Positions 13,000 to 48,584 of a DNA stretch of 53,246 nucleotides are shown here, piece by piece (the first letter of the stretch is position 1; every line of letters starts with the position of its first letter). The translations under genes and the position numbers were made by a program. Source of the DNA: Caulobacteraceae bacterium (GTDB taxonomy: Bacteria > Pseudomonadota > Alphaproteobacteria > Caulobacterales > Caulobacteraceae). Location: NCBI GenBank assembly GCA_028290905.1, contig JAQGIW010000169.1, forward strand, positions 1 to 53,246. The letters run 5' to 3'. The notes beneath the pieces were generated by a model. That model saw nothing but the letters and a program-made list of their open reading frames with translations. It was not told where the DNA came from and made no database searches.

Positions 13000-13077
13000 C
13001 TAGCGTGCTGGATTTGAAGTTCGCCGGTGTGTGGGGTCAGGCTCGGTGCGAACTTCAAATCCAAAAAAGCACACTAG
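13000..13077. repeat. CTAG-bounded palindrome A
   Basis: The 15-base arm GGATTTGAAGTTCGC (13010-13024) is matched exactly by GCGAACTTCAAATCC (13048-13062). The arms extend outward to CTAGCGTGCT and AGCACACTAG, 9 of 10 paired, with five extra A bases in the right arm. Both ends are CTAG and the loop is about 23 bases. It is the first of three such elements filling the 346-base gap after the ABC-F gene. I see no gene in this gap. Confidence 0.7.
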
Positions 13078-13090
13078 AATTCAATAGTTT

Positions 13091-13215
13091 CTAGTGGTGC
13101 GAATCAGACGCCTCGAACCCACCCGAGAGGCGCCGAACGCACCACAAGGCTTTGAATCTTGCGGTGCATTCTGAACCGCGGGGATCGGACTCATGTGTTT
13201 GATTTGCACCACTAG
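13091..13215. repeat. CTAG-bounded palindrome B
   Basis: The left arm CTAGTGGTGCGAATCAGACGC and the right arm ending GATTTGCACCACTAG pair over about 21 bases. The three differences are transitions that would be G-U pairs in RNA. An inner stem (GCCTCG with CGAGAGGC) lies in the left half. It starts 13 bases after palindrome A. Confidence 0.6.
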
Positions 13216-13286
13216 CGTGGCTGGAGATTTAGAATCCGCTCCGGAAATGCCACAAACATCGGCGAATTCCTGAATCGCGACACTAG
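13212..13286. repeat. CTAG-bounded palindrome C (degenerate)
   Basis: It shares its left CTAG with the right end of palindrome B and ends in CTAG at 13283-13286. Only the outer 10 bases pair well (CTAGCGTGGC against GCGACACTAG, 8 of 10), so it is weaker than A and B. It belongs to the series by position and by its ends. Confidence 0.4.
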
Positions 13287-13306
13287 GGGCCGGGGAGCGC
13301 CCGAAC

Positions 13307-14137
13307 CTACCGATGGCAGGCGTCCAACCAGTACCAGGGCGCCCCCAGAAGCCCGGGGTGAAGGGTGACACAAGCGAACTCCCCTTCGGCAAGCCGATTG
13401 AAGACGGCCTCCGGCACCTGCGGGCCTTCGTCCCGAGGCAAGTGATTGTACTCCCATGGGCGCCGGCTCAGACCTACATAGAACTGGCGGCCCGAGCGGA
13501 CGCTCAGGTGTTCAGTTTTCTTGAGTACTGGAATCTGAAATACCCGCCCTTTGGACAGGTCGAATTGAGTGTCGACCAGTTCGAAGACACCAAAGCCGTA
13601 GCCCGCCCATATCAAAGGATAGGCCAGTAGGATAAGCCATCGGCGGGAGTCATTCTGAAAGGGTTCGAGAATCTTGTTCCAGAAGGTGTTTCGCCCGGGT
13701 TGGAACAGCCGCCACAAACAATAGGTCGACAAGCCCCACGCAACGAGCATCATTCCCATGCCGACGCCGTTGTCGCTGACATTGTACTGCCATATATGAA
13801 TGCAGACGTCCGCCGGGAACAGCAAGACGCCGCCGAACGACAGAGCCAACAGCGGAGTACCCACCTGAAAACGATATATCCAGGACCGACAGTGATAGAT
13901 GATCACCAGAAAAAACAACGTAGAAAATACGACAAGTTCCTGGAACCACCACGGTGGAAAATTCCAGCGACCATAAATGAACGAAATCGCTACTGCGCAA
14001 ATAAACGGTATGGCAACGATAGATCCGCGCAAGCTCTTTGCACGGGTATAGACTACCCGTTCGGATTTGTTTATGATTTGTCTGGACTTGGACGAGATGA
14101 TGTCGATCATGCTACCGGTTTTCACAGACGGGGGCAT
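13307..14137 (-). CDS. Multi-pass membrane protein of unknown function
   Basis: I do not recognise this 276-residue protein. From the ATG at 14137 it has a basic N-terminus, then four or five hydrophobic segments: IVAIPFICAVAISFIYG, ELVVFSTLFFLVIIYHC, TPLLALSFGGVLLFPADVC, GMGMMLVAWGLSTYCLW and LILLAYPLIWAGYGFGVFEL. A soluble C-terminal domain of about 90 residues follows, ending LHPGLLGAPWYWLDAC. A TTG at 14149 could add four residues. The gene is clearly poorer in GC than its neighbours, has atypical codon use, and sits next to palindromic repeats, which suggests acquisition by transfer. It separates the ABC-F gene from the holC-pepA pair. Confidence 0.75.
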   Translation of the reverse strand: MPPSVKTGSMIDIISSKSRQIINKSERVVYTRAKSLRGSIVAIPFICAVAISFIYGRWNFPPWWFQELVVFSTLFFLVIIYHCRSWIYRFQVGTPLLALSFGGVLLFPADVCIHIWQYNVSDNGVGMGMMLVAWGLSTYCLWRLFQPGRNTFWNKILEPFQNDSRRWLILLAYPLIWAGYGFGVFELVDTQFDLSKGRVFQIPVLKKTEHLSVRSGRQFYVGLSRRPWEYNHLPRDEGPQVPEAVFNRLAEGEFACVTLHPGLLGAPWYWLDACHR

Positions 14138-14213
14138 AGTAAAGGACAATGCGTCACCGCCTAGAAGCTATTGCTCGGCATTTTAGGGAGCGCCGCGTGG
14201 GCGGCTCGAAGCC

Positions 14214-14669
14214 CTAGCTCTGTTTCTCCCAGCCCCGGCTCTCCCCCTGGCGCCAATAGGTGACCGGATGTCCGGCCTTCCGGCACCGGGACCACAGCGC
14301 CCGGGCCGCCTGCAAGGCCGGTTCGTCGCGGCCGTCGAAGACCACCACGCATCGCTCGTATCCGGCGAGATCGCCGGGATCGCCGTCCAGGAGAAAGAGG
14401 GCCTGAGCCCCGTTGGTGTTGTCGGAGCCTTCGCCCAGAAGGATGGGCTGGCGATCGGTGAAGGGCTCGCCGATCACGCCATGCGGAAGGAAACTGTCGT
14501 CGCGGTAAGTCCAAAGCGCGGCGTCGAGCGCCGCGATGCGTCCGGCGTCCGCCGACCGGACCCTGGCCCGCCAGCCGCGGCTGACGGTTTTCTCCAGCAG
14601 CTCCGGCAGCACCTGCTCCAGCGAGGTTCGCTCGAGATGGTAGAACCAGATCTCGCAGGGCGGCGGCAT
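14214..14669 (-). CDS. holC: DNA polymerase III subunit chi
   Basis: Chi links the clamp loader to SSB at the replication fork. From the ATG at 14669 the protein has 151 residues and begins CEIWFYHLERTSLEQVLPEL, the usual chi opening, followed by DSFLPHGVIGEP and QPILLGEG. Ten bases separate it from the end of pepA upstream on the same strand; pepA-holC is a widespread pairing, which supports both calls and the chosen start. A longer open frame upstream runs into pepA and is not family-like. Confidence 0.9.
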   Translation of the reverse strand: MPPPCEIWFYHLERTSLEQVLPELLEKTVSRGWRARVRSADAGRIAALDAALWTYRDDSFLPHGVIGEPFTDRQPILLGEGSDNTNGAQALFLLDGDPGDLAGYERCVVVFDGRDEPALQAARALWSRCRKAGHPVTYWRQGESRGWEKQS

Positions 14670-41084: not shown

Positions 41085-42290
41085 ATGCGGGCCGAATCAA
41101 AACCCCCCGAGGCGCCAGGGCCGAGGGAAACTGGAGTGGCTCCGCCGCGGTACGTCTTCTACGAGTTCTTCGCTGGCGGCGGCATGGCCCGTTTGGGACT
41201 GGGGGACCAGTGGAGTTGCCTGTTCGCCAATGATTTTGACGCCAAAAAAGGCGCGACCTACGCGCTAAACTTCGGCCGGCAAGTGCTCTCGGTCAAAGAC
41301 GTTCGCAAGGTCACCTTGGATGATCTCCCTGGGGTCGCCGACCTCGCCTGGGGCTCGTTTCCTTGCCAGGATTTGTCCCTGGCCGGCGCGGGCGCGGGAT
41401 TGAAGGGCGAGCGTTCGGGGACATTCTATCCGTTCTGGGAGGTCATGAAATCGCTGATCCGCGATGGCCGCGCCCCAAAGATCATTGCGCTGGAGAATGT
41501 CTGCGGCGCTCTAACATCTCACGGCGGCACGGACTTCGAGGCCATCTGCCGGACCTTTTCCACCCACGGCTACCTGTGCGGAGCGTTCGTGGTCAACGCC
41601 GAGCTGTTCGTGCCGCAGTCCCGCCAACGCCTGTTCTTCATCGGCGTGCGCGAGGACACGCGGATCGAACCCGCCCCGCTGTCTCCAGAACCCTTGGCGC
41701 CCTTCCATACGCGCGGGCTCTGCCGGGCGGTTGACGGCCTGCCCGAGCAGCTGAAGTCGGACCACCTGTGGTGGAACCTGCCGACCCCCGAGGGTCGTTC
41801 CGGGACCTTCGCCGATCTCATCGAAGAGGTGCCAACCAGCGTCCGCTGGCATTCGCTCGCCGAGACCCGGCAACTGCTGGCGATGATGTCTCCGCTCCAC
41901 AGGGCCAAGGTGACCCTCGCCAAGCAGGCGGGTCGCCGCATGGTTGGCGGCCTCTACAGGCGGACACGCGAGGACGAGAGGGGGGAGAAGGTTCAGCGCG
42001 CTGAGGTTCGCTTTGACGACATCTCGGGATGCCTGCGCACGCCCGTCGGCGGTTCCAGTCGCCAGATGATCCTGGTAGTTGAGGGCAACAGGGTCCAATC
42101 GCGGCTAATTTCGGCGCGAGAAACGGCACGGCTTATGGGGCTGCCCGACACCTACAAGCTTCCGAGGAACTACAACGAAGCCTACCACCTGACCGGCGAC
42201 GGCGTCGTCGTCGATGTGGTGCGTTACCTAACAAAGCACATCTTCGAGCCCCTACTCGCCGAACCGGTCAGGACCCGGCGGGCCGCGTGA
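41085..42290 (+). CDS. DNA (cytosine-5) methyltransferase
   Basis: C5-cytosine DNA methyltransferase, 401 residues from the ATG at 41085; a GTG at 41067 is a second possible start. Motif I is EFFAGGGMARLGLG (27-40), motif IV SFPCQDLSLAG with catalytic Cys94, motif VI ALENV (135-139), motif VIII QSRQRLFFIG (178-187), and the C-terminal motif X region is LTGDGVVVDVVRYL. Target recognition sits between motifs VIII and X and the specificity cannot be read. It is divergent from the truncated D-aminoacylase, and a 217-base gap separates it from the next gene. It is the likely modification part of the restriction island. Confidence 0.95.
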   Translation: MRAESKPPEAPGPRETGVAPPRYVFYEFFAGGGMARLGLGDQWSCLFANDFDAKKGATYALNFGRQVLSVKDVRKVTLDDLPGVADLAWGSFPCQDLSLAGAGAGLKGERSGTFYPFWEVMKSLIRDGRAPKIIALENVCGALTSHGGTDFEAICRTFSTHGYLCGAFVVNAELFVPQSRQRLFFIGVREDTRIEPAPLSPEPLAPFHTRGLCRAVDGLPEQLKSDHLWWNLPTPEGRSGTFADLIEEVPTSVRWHSLAETRQLLAMMSPLHRAKVTLAKQAGRRMVGGLYRRTREDERGEKVQRAEVRFDDISGCLRTPVGGSSRQMILVVEGNRVQSRLISARETARLMGLPDTYKLPRNYNEAYHLTGDGVVVDVVRYLTKHIFEPLLAEPVRTRRAA

Positions 42291-42507
42291 CGGCTCCGCC
42301 GGGGCGGCTCATCGGCGCGCGGCGGGACCGTTTGGGAGTGCGAGAACCAGGATGGGAGCGGCTAAGGATAACGGCGAACGAACGAATAATGACCCAGGCC
42401 ACCGGTAGCCAACTCCATCCCGTAGGATGTTCCGCCTTGTGGTGAGGCGGTGCGATCCTATAGCCCTAGCGCCGACGCGTTTGTCGACGGTGGTGAGGGG
42501 GAGAATT

Positions 42508-43374
42508 GTGGCGGGTGATACATCGGCACCGTGTAGGCATCCGGGGGCTCCGCCAGAGGAGATCATCCGGCTCGTTGTGGGTGCGGTGAAGGCAGTCGCG
42601 GCCGACCAGGCGTTTCTTCAGCGGAGGGGCCTGACCCCCGAGGATTTCGAGCTGGCATTACCCGCTGCGATCCAGCGCATTCGTGGAAGCGCGGCTGCTA
42701 GCAATGCAGATCGCCGCACGTTCTTAGTATCGATTTTCAAGGATTTGGTGTCCAGAAAGTTGATCTCCAGATTCGATACTCCTGACTACGGTGACGACAC
42801 GATCTACCGTCTATATATCACCGGCGTCGGCAGCGTGGCGATCATTCAGAAGGGATGTCCTGACGGAGCACATAGTAGCCTCAACTGGTCGCGACCGGCT
42901 TGGGCTGACGAAGCGTACCTATGGTGGCTTTGCGACAGCCTACAGTACGAACCCGGGGAGCACGTCACCAAAGGCGTCAATCGTCTCCGCAACAGGTTCT
43001 TTTCTCACGAATACGCCGATGCCCTAGACGGGGTGATTTTTGCCAACGCTACTTGCGGCACCACCTCGCGTCCCTGCCCCAAGATCGGCCGCGCGATAGT
43101 CTTGGAGGGCGAGAAAGTACCCCCGCCTTGCATCTGGATCATGCCCGAGCGCCGCGCTTTGCAGGCAGCACAACCCGCGGAGTGGAATTGGAGTGGAGAA
43201 CGAGTTCGGCGTTTCCCTGCGCTCCTGCTATCTGCCTTCGGCATCGATGCCGAGGAGGCCTCGCTCTACACGGGGCACGTCGGTTTCCAAAGCGGACCAC
43301 GCGGCACTCGGACCACCATCGCGTCGAGATTCGGTGCGGGCCGCTCAACGACTTATAGGAGCGATCCACGTTGA
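42508..43374 (+). CDS. Restriction-island protein of unknown function with an IIQKG motif (possible nuclease)
   Basis: No family is recognised with certainty. From the GTG at 42508, six bases after GAGGGGGA, it has 288 residues; an ATG at 42427 would add 27 less likely ones. The N-terminal 70 residues are helical. Then comes RFDTPDYGDDTIYRLYITG, followed by GSVAIIQKGCPDGAHSSLNW, AEDEAYLWWLC-like sequence (ADEAYLWWLCDSL) and GVNRLRNRFFSHEY. The D...(I/V)IQK layout could be a PD-(D/E)XK core with Gln in place of Glu, which would make this the cognate nuclease of the methyltransferase. That is an inference. Its stop overlaps the start of the ParB-domain gene. Confidence 0.75.
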   Translation: MAGDTSAPCRHPGAPPEEIIRLVVGAVKAVAADQAFLQRRGLTPEDFELALPAAIQRIRGSAAASNADRRTFLVSIFKDLVSRKLISRFDTPDYGDDTIYRLYITGVGSVAIIQKGCPDGAHSSLNWSRPAWADEAYLWWLCDSLQYEPGEHVTKGVNRLRNRFFSHEYADALDGVIFANATCGTTSRPCPKIGRAIVLEGEKVPPPCIWIMPERRALQAAQPAEWNWSGERVRRFPALLLSAFGIDAEEASLYTGHVGFQSGPRGTRTTIASRFGAGRSTTYRSDPR

Positions 43375-44687
43375 ATCCAGTCATGGACAGAGAGCGCGCG
43401 GAATTCCTCGCCGCCCGCATGGCTGGCGCCAAGCTTCAGTTGCTCCCGCAATGGATGCGGCCCGAGAAGGAGCTCCCCGTAGTCAACCTGCCCATCGAAT
43501 GGGTCCGCTTCTCGACGCTCAATCACCGGACCCGGGCCGAACAGATGCGCGCGGTTGAGACCAGCGGGCTCACAGACCTCTTCAGTGGTGATCCGATGGG
43601 GCCTGCCGCCCAACAAGCGCAGCTTAAGATCCTGTCGACCCAGGAGGGATTTGAATCGCTGAAGCAGGATCTCCGCGAACGTGGTCAGCAGGAGCCCGCG
43701 GTCGTCACTGCCGAGGGCGTGCTGATAAACGGCAATCGTCGTTCTGCGGGTTTGCGCGACCTGTGGCTGACCGAGCACCTCCAATCTGCCCGGTACGTGC
43801 GCACCTTTGTCCTGCCCGCTGACACCACGGCTGACGAGGTGATTGACCTTGAGACCGAGCTTCAGGTCGCCAAGGACTACCGCGAGGACTATTCATGGGT
43901 CAACGAGGCACTTCTGATCGAGGAAATCTTCGAGGCTTGTAACAAGGATTGGGATCGGGTCGCCCAGCGCATGCGTTTGAAGCCCGCTGAAGTCAGAGCG
44001 CAGTACGAGAAGCTGCAGCAGCTTCATCAATTAGTCGCGATGTCCAAGGGTACGAGACACCACGCCGATTTCGTTGGGAACGAGTCCGCCTTCGATGAAC
44101 TTTCCAAGCACGTTAGGGACAAATCACCAGAAGAATCAGCTTCTGTTCGGAGTGTATACTTTCTTGGCACGTTGTCGGGGGTGAACTATCGAGAATTGCG
44201 CCATCTTCGCCGGAAGGATGCAGGCACGTTTGTTCGTGGTGAGTTCGTCACGAACCCCACGTTGGTCTCATTGCTGTCCGTCGCGGACGACGACAGCACA
44301 ACTGCCGCTGATGACCTGCTCGACGATGTGCTCGGAAATGGGGGTTCCGCGCCTTTGGCCGATCTGACGTCCGTGTTGTCATTCCTGGCGCAGCGCAAGC
44401 CCGACGAGGTCGTCGAGATGCCAGACGGTGCCAAGGTGCCGGTGGAGCAGTTGCTGGCATCCGTACGCAGCGCGGTGAATTCGGCGGCCAATGAGGCGAG
44501 CGAGGAGGCCAAGGACGCACAGGCGGTAGTGGCACCGGTCCTCCGTTTATCGGCTGCTCGCGACCATATTGTGCGCGCCGCATCTGCTTTGGCGAAGGCT
44601 CGAACGCAGACCGGCTGGGACGAGGCAGGGTTCAAGAAGAAGATTGAGGAGGTAAGAGCGGCGGTCTCGCAAATTGAGGCGCTCTGA
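43371..44687 (+). CDS. ParB/Srx-domain protein of the restriction island
   Basis: A 438-residue protein with a ParB N-terminal-like domain at about 38-135: PVVNLPIEWVRFSTLNHRTR, then EPAVVTAEGVLINGNRRSAG with the ParB-type GNRR..A nucleotide-binding box (121-126). A helical region follows with a possible helix-turn-helix (DWDRVAQRMRLKPAEVRAQY), and a C-terminal helical segment rich in Ala and Glu. The start is a TTG at 43371, nine bases after AGGAG and overlapping the upstream stop; an ATG at 43383 is the alternative. It is not a plasmid partition gene: there is no parA, and the next gene is an SNF2 helicase whose ATG overlaps its stop. Confidence 0.85.
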   Translation: MNPVMDRERAEFLAARMAGAKLQLLPQWMRPEKELPVVNLPIEWVRFSTLNHRTRAEQMRAVETSGLTDLFSGDPMGPAAQQAQLKILSTQEGFESLKQDLRERGQQEPAVVTAEGVLINGNRRSAGLRDLWLTEHLQSARYVRTFVLPADTTADEVIDLETELQVAKDYREDYSWVNEALLIEEIFEACNKDWDRVAQRMRLKPAEVRAQYEKLQQLHQLVAMSKGTRHHADFVGNESAFDELSKHVRDKSPEESASVRSVYFLGTLSGVNYRELRHLRRKDAGTFVRGEFVTNPTLVSLLSVADDDSTTAADDLLDDVLGNGGSAPLADLTSVLSFLAQRKPDEVVEMPDGAKVPVEQLLASVRSAVNSAANEASEEAKDAQAVVAPVLRLSAARDHIVRAASALAKARTQTGWDEAGFKKKIEEVRAAVSQIEAL

Positions 44688-46588
44688 TGATTACGGCCGA
44701 ACTGTATCGCCACGGCCGTCCGACTGTGGTTGTCGAGCGCAAGGGCAACGTGAACCCTGGTGCCTGGGCACGTCTACAGGAAGCACTTGCCCGCGGGATC
44801 GAGTCCGGCTCGCCGGTGCGTACCGTTGTACATGCCGATGTATTCCTTGCTGAACTCGGCGTGGTTCGAGAACTGCGCGCCGTCTTCGGCGAGCGGGTAG
44901 AGCCAGGCCCTACGCTGTCCGACCAACTCCGTGCAATGGCGAATGACCGTAGGGCTCGCGAGGCGATCGTCGACGCTGGCGAGCCGGACGACGCGGCACT
45001 TGAGGCGTTGGCATACGAACTCAGCGCTTCGGGAGTCACCCGCGCACTGCATTCCTTCCAGCTGCGCAACCTCCATCGTCTCATCAGTCTTCCCCATGGC
45101 GCCGACTTCTCAGTTCCAGGCGCCGGCAAAACGACGGTCGCTCTCTCTGCATACTCGATCCTGCGGGCGCGAGGTGTCGTGAGTCGCTTAAGCGTGGTCG
45201 GCCCCATCGCCGCGTTCGGAGCTTGGAAGGAGGAGCTCGTCGCCTGCTTCGCGACTCCACCGCTTCTAGTTATTCACACGGGACCGGGCACCGTCATCCC
45301 ACAGAACACCGAAGTCTTGCTATCAAACTATAACCGGACTGCCAGCGATTATGACACGGTCCGGGCCTTTGTGGCTGCCAAGCCGACACAAGTCATCCTG
45401 GATGAAGCCCACCGAGTAAAGCGTGGTGCCGCAGGCGTGCACGGACGTGCCGTGCTTGACCTTGCCTATGCCGCCCGACGACGTGACGTGCTCACAGGCA
45501 CGCCCGCTCCCCAAGGCGCGTTCGACCTCGTCGCCCTAATTAGCTTCCTCTATCCCGGGCAAGATCGGCAGATTCTGCCTAACGCCGCTTACTTCGAGCG
45601 TCTGGGGCGAGATGAACCGGTGTTGGCAGAGACGAATAGCGCGGTCCGACGCTACTTCGTCCGGACACCGAAGGCGGAACTCGACCTCCCGCCGACGAGG
45701 TTCGCGGTTGTGAGGGAGCAGATGCCCCCGATCCAGTCGGCGATATACGACGCTCTGATGGGACAATATCGCTCGTCCTTTGCGTTGCCTGACCGAGGCA
45801 GGCACGAGATGCAGCGATTGGGTCGCATCGTCATGTACCTCTTGGAGGCAGCTACCAACCCCATGCTCCTCACCGCGGGTTCTGATGATGGCGATGATCC
45901 GGCCTTTCTTCACCCGCCGTTGAAGCTCCACGGCGGGGAGCCGTTGGCCGACCTGCTGGCGCGGTACGGCAGGTTCGAGCAACCGTGGAAGTACCAGCGG
46001 ATTGCGGCGATCGTCCAAGAGGCGGCCGCGCGTGGCGAGAAGGTTTTAGTCTGGTCCAGTTTTGTCCGTAACCTTAAAGCACTCGCTCGTCGTCTGGATC
46101 AATACGAGCCGGCACTGGTACACGGAGGTGTCCCCTCGGACGAGACGGCACCGGCCTATGTCGTCACACGCGAGCGCGAGTTCGAGCGGTTTCGCCATGA
46201 TCCCGCTTGCATTGTCTTGCTTGCAAACCCAGCTGCATGCGGCGAAGGAATTAGCCTACATCATTGGTGCCACCACGCCGTCTACCTTGATCGGACGTTT
46301 AATGCCGGTCACTTCCTGCAGAGCCAAGACCGCATTCACCGCCTCGGCTTGGCGCCGGATATACTCACTCGATTCACGCTGTTGATCAGCGCGGGATCGA
46401 TAGACGATTCGGTCGACGGCCGCTTGGCCGAAAAGGTAAGCGCGCTTGCCCGGCTGATGGACGATCCGGGCTTGGTACAAATCGCGCTCCCATCGTCGGA
46501 CGAAGGCGGAGGCGGTACCCCCGCTTTCGACGACGACTTCTCAGCGGGGGTGGCGCATCTGACTTCCGGCGATGCGCGACCTTCCTAG
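44687..46588 (+). CDS. SNF2/DEAH-type helicase of the restriction island
   Basis: Superfamily 2 translocase, 633 residues. An N-terminal domain of about 120 residues of unknown fold comes first. Then FSVPGAGKTTVALSA (Walker A, 142-149), DEAH at 239-242 in VILDEAHRVKRG, motif III LTGTPAPQG (269-277), and in the second RecA domain KVLVWSSFVRNLKAL, ANPAACGEGISLHHW and motif VI QSQDRIHRLG (545-554). The order and wording match SNF2-like DNA translocases. The gene starts one base inside the ParB-gene stop, and its end overlaps the nuclease gene by 17 bases. Confidence 0.92.
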   Translation: MITAELYRHGRPTVVVERKGNVNPGAWARLQEALARGIESGSPVRTVVHADVFLAELGVVRELRAVFGERVEPGPTLSDQLRAMANDRRAREAIVDAGEPDDAALEALAYELSASGVTRALHSFQLRNLHRLISLPHGADFSVPGAGKTTVALSAYSILRARGVVSRLSVVGPIAAFGAWKEELVACFATPPLLVIHTGPGTVIPQNTEVLLSNYNRTASDYDTVRAFVAAKPTQVILDEAHRVKRGAAGVHGRAVLDLAYAARRRDVLTGTPAPQGAFDLVALISFLYPGQDRQILPNAAYFERLGRDEPVLAETNSAVRRYFVRTPKAELDLPPTRFAVVREQMPPIQSAIYDALMGQYRSSFALPDRGRHEMQRLGRIVMYLLEAATNPMLLTAGSDDGDDPAFLHPPLKLHGGEPLADLLARYGRFEQPWKYQRIAAIVQEAAARGEKVLVWSSFVRNLKALARRLDQYEPALVHGGVPSDETAPAYVVTREREFERFRHDPACIVLLANPAACGEGISLHHWCHHAVYLDRTFNAGHFLQSQDRIHRLGLAPDILTRFTLLISAGSIDDSVDGRLAEKVSALARLMDDPGLVQIALPSSDEGGGGTPAFDDDFSAGVAHLTSGDARPS

Positions 46589-47486
46589 CCGGGGCCGATG
46601 CCACGCCACGTTCCTGTTGGCCTATAGCGCACGGGTCAGGCAGTGCTATGATGTGGACGCTTGGCTCCGCGCGACGCTCGAGAAGCCAACCGTTATGGCG
46701 GCCTCGCTCGACTTAGCAGGCACCGCACGTCTACTGATCGACGTGGGACTTGCCCGCGTCGACAGTGCGGTCGTGGCTTCCCGCGAGTTGGCGCGGTTTG
46801 ATCAAGTGGCGGATGTCGCCACGTTTAAGGGCATCGCGCGCCTGCTACTCGTGCACCGACCGCCGGACTGGCTGAGAGCAAGTGTCGTGGATGGTCGCCT
46901 TGCATCGGAGTTCATCCCGGGCTGCGACTTGGAAGCCATGTCGTGGATGGGGACAGACCTTGAGGCGGTGATCGTCGCCGCGCACCAGCAACTGTATAGT
47001 ACATCTGACGCTTTTCTGCTGAAGCGCCTGGGTGATGCCGGTGAGCTTGCTGTTATGTCGGCCCTGCAACTCAAGGGTCTCACCCCGCGCCATGTCGCGC
47101 TAATTTCCGACCGCTTCGGCTACGACATCGAACTTGGCGGTGTCGCTCAGCGCCTAGCACTGGAGGTCAAAACTGCGGTGACATCGACCGCCACGCGGGT
47201 TCTCGTATCGCGGAATGAGTTCGACGTTGCAAACCGAATGGGGGACCGCTGGAAAATTGTGCAAGTGACCTTCTCATCTAACGTGATCGTCCGCGGCGTC
47301 GCCCATGCAGCTGACATCGAGGCGATCCGAGAGCTCTCCAGTACCTCGCTTATCAACATGGCACCACCGGAGAACGACGTTTTCAGGTGGGCTGACGCAG
47401 CAGAATTCCGGCCGGGCCCCGGAATGTGGAGTACTAGTGATTTGACGGTTGACCAAGACTTTCGAGCTAGTTTGATGCTGCCTTAG
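46572..47486 (+). CDS. DUF3883-like PD-(D/E)XK nuclease of the restriction island
   Basis: A 304-residue protein with a probable restriction-endonuclease-like domain at about 150-240: GDAGELAVMSAL (Glu158), then RFGYDIEL (Asp185), then LALEVKTA (Glu198, Lys200), then SRNEFDVANRMGDRWKIVQV. The E...D...ExK order followed by an (R)NE(F/W) helix and a strand is that of DUF3883 domains found in many defence genes. The N-terminal 140 residues are helical and unrecognised. It overlaps the helicase gene, so it is translated in the same operon. Its nuclease activity is an inference from motif residues. Confidence 0.8.
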   Translation: MRDLPSRGRCHATFLLAYSARVRQCYDVDAWLRATLEKPTVMAASLDLAGTARLLIDVGLARVDSAVVASRELARFDQVADVATFKGIARLLLVHRPPDWLRASVVDGRLASEFIPGCDLEAMSWMGTDLEAVIVAAHQQLYSTSDAFLLKRLGDAGELAVMSALQLKGLTPRHVALISDRFGYDIELGGVAQRLALEVKTAVTSTATRVLVSRNEFDVANRMGDRWKIVQVTFSSNVIVRGVAHAADIEAIRELSSTSLINMAPPENDVFRWADAAEFRPGPGMWSTSDLTVDQDFRASLMLP

Positions 47487-47585
47487 TTTTGTTTAACTAC
47501 CCCGCGTCGGAGCTCTCACCTCGACAGTTTTGACCGAGCGCAGACCCGTCGCTGCCTACGCCGCCCACGCCCCAGCCATCAACAA

Positions 47586-48584
47586 TCAGGCTGCGGCTTT
47601 GAACAACTCGAACCGCGCGGCGAGGCGGTCGCGATCGGCCCGGTCCTTCTCGCGCCTGGGGTCGCGCAGCCTCGCGCCATCCAACTTCTTCATCGCCTCC
47701 AGAATCGGTCCATCGTTCAAAGACAACAGCCGATCCGAGACGTGAATGCGATACTCAGGGTCTATGCCAATTAGGTGTGCGTCGAAGGCCGCGTGATGGG
47801 TCTTCGAAAGCGGAAGCCCGTTCTGAACTATAGGTTGGCCGAGAAGTTCGTGGGTATCGGCCATAATGTGGGCGGCGTCGAGGAGCATCGGCTCCGGTAG
47901 CCCCGAGAGCGCGCAACGCCCTTGGTATGCAGTGATTACAGCTTCGCGGAAGGAAGCTTGATGCAGTCTCTGTTTGACGGCGCGCAGCGCGTACCGCCGC
48001 TCGAACGGCGTGGACGGCGCCTCTGACGAGGATTGATCTGGGAGGCCGAAGGTTATTCGAGCGCGCAGCCCAGCCCGATCGATTTCCGTCACGAAGACGG
48101 GTGTTACGACCTGATAGAGAGCGGGTTTCACCCCCAGGAAATAGATCAGCGGTATCTGATACTCGCAGGCCACTCGCAGATTGCGGTTGTCCGCCGCCTC
48201 GGGGTCGCCGCCCGTGAATGAATAGTCAATGAGCTCGTCGCCCTCATAGATCTGGCGGTGGACCTCGCGCTGGTCGTCGTACCAAACGCGATTGCCGGGC
48301 TTAGGAAACACCGTCTTGATCGAGAGCAGGAAACTCATCCCCGCTGGTTTGAATATGCCTCGCCGAGGGTTGTACAATGGGACGCGAACCCCATTGACGA
48401 AGAACCCCTGGTCGAGCTCCTTGGCAGGCACCAAGCTCCCCGCCCGGGATAACTCCCGCACCCGTTCGAACGCCGCCATGCGCATGAGGGTGTCGCGCTC
48501 GTCGGTGAGGGCTAGCCGCAGCCAGCCGTCCTGCGCCTCCAGTCCCTGGAATTTGGCCGGAGCTTCAGCAAACCCTTGAGGCAT
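47586..48584 (-). CDS. Predicted HNH restriction endonuclease (COG3440-like)
   Basis: A 332-residue protein with an N-terminal putative recognition domain and a C-terminal HNH nuclease. The N-terminal half has VPLYNPRRGIFKPAGMSFLL, the DNRNLRVACEYQIPLIYFLG block and VVTPVFVTEID, as in predicted restriction endonucleases. In the nuclease, FREAVITAYQGRCALSGLPE is followed by LLDAAHIMADTH (His239), QNGLPLSKTHHAAFD (Asn255, His263-264) and LIGIDPEYRIHVSD, which is an intact HNH_2-type site. It converges on the nuclease gene at 46572-47486 with a 99-base gap. Relatives are thought to cut modified DNA; that is not shown here. Confidence 0.88.
   Translation of the reverse strand: MPQGFAEAPAKFQGLEAQDGWLRLALTDERDTLMRMAAFERVRELSRAGSLVPAKELDQGFFVNGVRVPLYNPRRGIFKPAGMSFLLSIKTVFPKPGNRVWYDDQREVHRQIYEGDELIDYSFTGGDPEAADNRNLRVACEYQIPLIYFLGVKPALYQVVTPVFVTEIDRAGLRARITFGLPDQSSSEAPSTPFERRYALRAVKQRLHQASFREAVITAYQGRCALSGLPEPMLLDAAHIMADTHELLGQPIVQNGLPLSKTHHAAFDAHLIGIDPEYRIHVSDRLLSLNDGPILEAMKKLDGARLRDPRREKDRADRDRLAARFELFKAAA

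Follow-up and report, generated by a model that had tools for sequence, protein, structure and literature searches.

A restriction-enzyme homologue without its presumed catalytic acids, linked to ParB-type, SNF2 and DUF3883 proteins in a candidate ATP-dependent restriction module

The stretch of DNA considered here (the window, 53,246 nucleotides, contig JAQGIW010000169.1 of the Caulobacteraceae assembly GCA_028290905.1) carries a gene for a 5-methylcytosine (5mC) DNA methyltransferase (MTase) followed by orf2, which encodes a homologue of a type II restriction endonuclease (REase) family whose presumed catalytic acids have been lost, and by genes for a ParB-type protein, an SNF2-family ATPase and a DUF3883/NOV_C protein. 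With moderate confidence, these genes are proposed to form a restriction module that depends on ATP and works with a type II-style 5mC MTase, in which the dead REase acts as reader, ParB as clamp, SNF2 as motor and NOV_C as cutter. In this scheme, orf2, kept as a sequence reader, would recognize the site of the MTase when it is unmethylated and hand the DNA to the ParB-type protein, which would be loaded as a clamp; the SNF2 motor would move the complex, and the NOV_C nuclease would cut the DNA. The scheme supposes that orf2 still binds the site of the MTase, that the proteins assemble into one complex, and that invading DNA is attacked when unmethylated. At the level of sequence and prediction, it draws on the REase homology and acid loss of orf2, purifying selection, gene order, MTase linkage, a predicted ParB fold, and intact SNF2 and NOV_C motifs.

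A restriction-enzyme homologue and its missing acids

The orf2 product (42508..43374, forward strand, 288 aa) is the predicted sequence reader of the set and matches the PADLOC model REase_II PDLC03501 with an E-value of 9e-22; a preliminary description of this DNA, made from the letters alone, had left it as an unknown protein, and it now appears to be the key part. A longer mechanical open reading frame (ORF) begins at 42427, and the GTG at 42508 is the most likely start because homologues begin there. MTase-paired REase relatives of orf2 within the PDLC03501 family are referred to here as plain REases, two of which match the same PADLOC model along the whole of their own sequence (399 and 469 bits). 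Among 38 aligned plain sequences, 35 span the whole motif, one (L077) contributes only its aspartate, and two are C-terminal pieces. Numbered with respect to the motif lysine, the plain relatives show Asp at -16 in 36/36, Glu or Asp at -2 in 34/35, and the Lys itself in 35/35. At the same positions, the orf2 proteins carry Val or Ile, Ile or Val, and Lys in all 30 distinct loci (31 rows, as the window is represented twice, as L001 and L078), so that both presumed metal-binding acids are gone. By sequence, orf2 is a homologue of a type II REase family from which these acids have been lost.

The AlphaFold2 model of orf2 (predicted local distance difference test (pLDDT) 86.9, predicted template modelling score 0.82) places the lysine where a core strand ends and follows the order helix-strand-strand-strand-helix-strand. 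In four pairs of the orf2 class, drawn from loci other than the window, the ratio of nonsynonymous to synonymous substitution rates (dN/dS) is 0.04-0.28; orf2 is therefore under purifying selection in the tested pairs and is not a decaying gene there.

It could be supposed that orf2 is an active nuclease whose site has merely shifted (Asp at -18, Gln at -1, and Lys), which would make the system an ordinary REase with helpers. The residues needed for such a site are indeed common, with Asp at -18 in 28/31 rows and Gln at -1 in 30/31 (the window counted twice). The acid at -2, however, is replaced by Ile or Val in every orf2 row, and homologues of the HNH and BamHI types that occupy the same gene position show a similar loss (see below), which makes a shifted site quite improbable.

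Conserved gene order and the predicted engine

All six ORFs of the block lie where they had been placed, four of them overlapping (at 43371, 44687 and 46572), and the GC content drops from approximately 0.69 to 0.60 over about 42-48.5 kb and recovers past the last gene of the block, an HNH gene; the earlier observation of such a block is confirmed. The order dead REase-ParB-SNF2-DUF3883 is conserved in 30 loci, comprising the window, four plasmids (in Kozakia, Rhizobium, Mesorhizobium and Azospirillum) and 25 close genome loci. Their hosts are Alpha-, Beta- and Gammaproteobacteria, Actinomycetes and one Verrucomicrobia metagenome-assembled genome, covering three phyla (Pseudomonadota, Actinomycetota and Verrucomicrobia). 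ParB is present in 30/30 loci (the contig of L037 ends inside it) and SNF2 in 29/30, a 5mC MTase lies in the examined stretch in 27/30 (the other three showing none), and Vsr accompanies 23/30, the window not among them. The triad and its MTase link, whose recurrence had been named as support in advance, are thus found again in unrelated bacteria, both on plasmids and on further genome contigs. Independent cases are fewer than the counts given here and below, because L007, L017 and L018 group closely together and the two members of L014/L015, of L040/L043 and of L010/L096 are nearly alike.

Defence islands collect unrelated genes, of which the HNH gene here is an example, and the set could in principle consist of such neighbours without joint function. 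A fixed order with overlapping starts, retained in 30 loci over three phyla, argues against this, and mere neighbourhood is considered very improbable.

The set is rare. The orf2 profile matched 2/385 genomes of the class, namely the window's own genome and a plain REase, and the ParB profile matched 4/398 genomes of the phylum, own genome included; in a search of relatives, a ParB match was found in 4/99 genomes, again including the own genome, the other three being distant and one of them (G003/L081) being a BamHI-type case described below. Candidates dropped during these searches were a ParB-like gene lying among metabolic genes (G095/L083) and two loci without an SNF2 match (G023/L082 and, in the phylum search, G256/L098). 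Among viral contigs, the ParB query returned 39 stretches, none of which was confirmed. No match to the ParB, SNF2 or NOV_C queries was found beside plain REases in 32 entries from viral contigs and genome G406. In a further locus, from the phylum search (L097:4780-12352), a ParB-SNF2-NOV_C run is followed by an N6/N4 MTase; this locus was not counted as a dead-REase case because a GHKL ATPase and a Methyltransf_35 protein, both upstream, stand in the place of the REase.

The ParB-type protein (43371..44687, forward strand), a predicted nucleotide-dependent DNA clamp with a GNRR motif, remained without a Pfam match over the cut-off, as did orf2, and no PADLOC 2023 model matches it; its profile also gave nothing useful against Protein Data Bank (PDB) sequences. 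Its ParB-type assignment is nevertheless borne out by an AlphaFold2 model (pLDDT 87.1), for which all 14 Foldseek matches with E<=0.001 are ParB, Noc or KorB; the modelled protein thus has a ParB/Noc/KorB fold. Several of the matched structures were solved with CTP-gamma-S or CDP, and the GNRR motif together with the fold suggests that the protein may use CTP. The SNF2-family ATPase (44687..46588, forward strand; PF00176, 3.6e-12), a predicted DNA motor, belongs to a group of 29 sequences in which the regions GAGKTT, DEAH, LTGTP and QSQDRIHRLG are conserved. The DUF3883/NOV_C protein (46572..47486, forward strand; PF13020, 1.1e-7) is a predicted PD-(D/E)XK nuclease in which the E, GYD and E-x-K elements are present, and this pattern is intact in 24/24 aligned sequences. 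DUF3883 has been termed a novel REase domain (PMC3710099). In the proposed scheme, the NOV_C protein would be the one that cuts DNA.

The methyltransferase and other restriction enzymes at these loci

The window MTase (41085..42290, forward strand; PF00145, 7e-45; Cys94) is 53-69% identical to the MTases of all 36 plain systems compared and, by sequence, shares a clade with the MTase of a plain restriction-modification (R-M) system of two genes. Plain REases from viral contigs and genome G406 adjoin a 5mC MTase in 32/32 entries (two of which represent one locus). All 25 cassette-linked MTases that were compared (of 27 found, L015 and L017 being omitted as near copies) have a conserved block in their presumed recognition segment, even where overall identity is down to 33%, as would fit a single site common to them. 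Mantel comparisons over 24 loci gave r 0.50 for MTase versus orf2 identity, 0.81 for SNF2 versus orf2 and 0.62 for MTase versus SNF2; they are not counted as proof because shared descent explains them as well as shared specificity does.

The REase gene that adjoins the MTase varies among three families and can evidently be exchanged, being of the GIY-YIG kind in 14 of the 30 loci, DUF4928 in 5 (one partial, L034) and plain PDLC03501 in 3. Remnants of replaced REases persist, plain in L014 and L015 and GIY-YIG in L006, and both orf2 and plain kinds occur together in L006, L013 and L025. An identity of the GIY-YIG REase with Eco29kI, which would imply CCGCGG, was considered and dropped, as neither a phmmer search with one member nor a profile built from 12 matched Eco29kI in the PDB; for this reason the window MTase is not assigned a recognition site.

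That 22/30 loci carry such a further REase gene suggests another role for orf2, namely that of a regulator or protector which occupies sites and tempers the active REase for self-protection, with ParB-SNF2 helping it to spread or clearing it from DNA; dead enzymes may compete for sites in this manner. The dead protein, however, is mostly of another family than the REase adjoining the MTase (GIY-YIG or DUF4928 in 19/22), five MTase-bearing stretches (the window, L019, L028, L035 and L037) showed no REase of the three kinds, and a conserved nuclease motif lies within the operon. Nor was a plain or GIY-YIG REase found elsewhere in the window genome (96% completeness); a DUF4928 search of that genome gave no match, and its controls gave none either. 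An intact cognate REase of another family may be present in this genome, or the window HNH gene may fill that place. Taken together, a regulatory role for orf2 is regarded as unlikely.

Dead REases of other families precede further ParB-SNF2 pairs. In ten actinomycete loci (L038-L047) with a more distant ParB-SNF2 pair, an HNH homologue stands directly before ParB; its motif His, which we take to be catalytic, is replaced by Arg or Lys in 10/10 loci, and the cysteines, presumably zinc ligands, are kept. MTase-paired HNH homologues keep the His in 4/4 cases, and the dN/dS of the dead HNH proteins is 0.08-0.13 in three pairs. An MTase is present in 8/10 of these loci and Vsr, by reading of the sequence, in 8/10; a NaeI-family gene (PF09126) was Pfam-confirmed in 3/3 loci tested, which, for this class only, suggests a GCCGGC site. 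Among viral contigs, the MTase-paired HNH query returned nine stretches, none confirmed. Separately, a Rhodococcus plasmid, pROB02 (L085:3457-7316), has one MTase adjoined by an HNH gene, a NaeI-family REase and Vsr.

A BamHI/BglII-type homologue takes the same position on a Paracoccus plasmid (L010), in the window's own genus (L081, genome G003) and in a locus near-identical to L010 (L096, genome G630). Its PF09195 matches range from 3.6e-6 to 1.6e-5 and exceed the cut-off in L081 alone. The first Glu of the ExE pair, presumably the catalytic one, is replaced by Cys or Gln in 3/3 loci, two of them near-identical, and in each of the three NOV_C comes after SNF2. L010 and L096 show the run MTase-dead REase-ParB-SNF2-NOV_C without any other REase. 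Thus, at one and the same gene position, catalytic residues have been lost in three unrelated REase families (PDLC03501, HNH and BamHI/BglII type). An even chance is given to the wider proposal that at least three unrelated REase families were independently stripped of catalysis to become exchangeable readers for one conserved engine of ParB clamp and SNF2 motor, to which a NOV_C cutter is usually added and which is paired with a matching MTase. On a Lactococcus plasmid (L093:1-7674), the genes of a type III R-M system (mod, res) are followed, with overlapping starts, by a ParB-SNF2 pair, so that type III systems may be further users of the engine; ParB-SNF2 pairs on Bacilli plasmids (L092, L094 and L095) lie near HsdR, dcm or MutH/Sau3AI-type genes.

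The invariance of the ParB and SNF2 pair, the resemblance of the ParB model to clamp proteins, and the absence or weak matching of NOV_C in the ten HNH-class loci would also suit a defence that does not cut, in which ParB clamps would be loaded by the reader wherever a site is unmethylated and used by SNF2 to block replication or transcription of the invader, NOV_C being optional. Against this stand the intactness of the NOV_C motifs wherever they could be aligned and the position of NOV_C after SNF2 in most orf2-class and all BamHI-class loci, and such a mechanism is judged improbable.

Weight of the proposal, neighbouring features and known systems

Several observations weigh against the proposed reader-clamp-motor-cutter module. 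NOV_C is not universal, being full length in 23/30 orf2 loci (L036 counted so by ORF length), partial in 4 (split between two frames in L005, split at an annotated transposase gene in L007, and running off contigs in two) and not seen in 3, of which L016 and L037 are contig ends; in the ten HNH-class loci, there is one weak 142-aa match (L039) and another, in L041, that looks spurious. In L009 and L097, ParB-SNF2-NOV stands without a recognized REase homologue in front. Because 22 of the 30 loci have another REase gene beside the MTase, the module may be accessory in them. One plain, MTase-paired REase in a cassette locus (L025, 5692-6552) carries Ala for the presumed catalytic Glu, as if it were losing function as well, and the D/E/K triad is itself presumed catalytic from pattern and topology. 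Lastly, Foldseek returned no match for the orf2 model at E<=0.001, and acetyl-CoA carboxylase rows (Z 6.0) top its VIA list, above the nuclease rows, all at Z<8. Nuclease rows among the 50 include BspD6I2 (Z 5.2), PaqCI (4.6), EndoMS (4.5), SfsA (4.3) and EcoRV (4.0), and many of the 50 are PD-(D/E)XK proteins; given nuclease rows at Z<8 and no Foldseek match, a PD-(D/E)XK REase core fold for orf2 is likely and not proven. The plain-REase profile gave nothing useful against PDB sequences.

The sixth gene of the block (47586..48584, reverse strand; HNH_2, 1.6e-10) encodes an HNH_2 endonuclease whose motif reads as intact and which gives a sub-cut-off match to a family restricting phosphorothioated DNA (50.5 of 180 bits). 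It had been taken as a member of the set; judged by gene content across loci, it is outside the conserved set and a mere neighbour. The earlier assignments of MTase, SNF2, DUF3883 and HNH identity agree with the Pfam matches, and the defence-island reading survives in its recurrent, MTase-linked triad and fails in its HNH membership and its treatment of orf2 as unknown. Some of the other loci likewise have HNH genes in the vicinity of the cassette. Elsewhere in the window, ARAGORN found no tRNA, and a second GC dip (0.55) with AT skew spans 13001-14500, containing an ORF (13307-14149, reverse strand) that by eye has the look of a membrane protein.

Several known systems resemble parts of this set. 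The R protein of CglI/NgoAVII bears an active nuclease, the PLD domain, and Pfam reported no PLD domain in the six window proteins. DISARM comprises DrmA, DrmB (DUF1998) and DrmC beside an MTase, the marker of Druantia is the large helicase DruE, and that of Dpd is the TGT-like enzyme DpdA. Similarity to DISARM, Druantia, Dpd and Zorya consists of weak PADLOC matches of SNF2 to ZorD, DpdE, DrmD and DrmA; no match to DrmB/DUF1998, DrmC, DruE, DpdA or ZorA/B was found in the six proteins (for the MTase, among 25 of 54 PADLOC matches). Druantia had been considered because the MTase matches DruM (515.6 bits) and was rejected for want of DruE. Type I restriction, in which HsdS is a separate specificity subunit, similarly keeps reader, motor and nuclease functions apart, but in the present set a dead type II REase, and not a target recognition domain protein, would do the reading. 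Type II R-M systems of the PDLC03501 family, found on plasmids and viral contigs, share the MTase clade, and the window holds the MTase that such a system requires; orf2 is a diverged homologue of their REase, which, unlike orf2, keeps D...(E/D)xK. The nearest known logic is that of CglI/NgoAVII, in which an MTase and a restriction protein cooperate with a helicase-like ATPase that is a protein of its own, and cleavage reportedly needs NTP hydrolysis (PMC5737866, PMC4267653). It differs in that its R protein is the endonuclease, whereas the present set has a dead REase homologue, includes a ParB-type clamp as well, and has its predicted nuclease in another protein, NOV_C. The earlier view that no named system matches is upheld by Pfam and PADLOC searches of the six proteins: PADLOC 2023 has models matching other parts and none that names this set. 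Within the literature covered, mostly title-level entries and exclusive of subscription papers and preprints, no paper describing the gene set or the dead-REase arrangement was identified.

If the proposal is true, evolution would repeatedly have made its own "dead Cas9" from restriction enzymes, dropping the cutter, keeping the reader and leaving the cutting to a motor complex. This would represent a new way to build DNA targeting that is addressed by sequence and driven by ATP, and would give the ParB clamp a new role beyond DNA segregation; it would also explain why an R-M locus retains a restriction-enzyme gene that is unable to cut.

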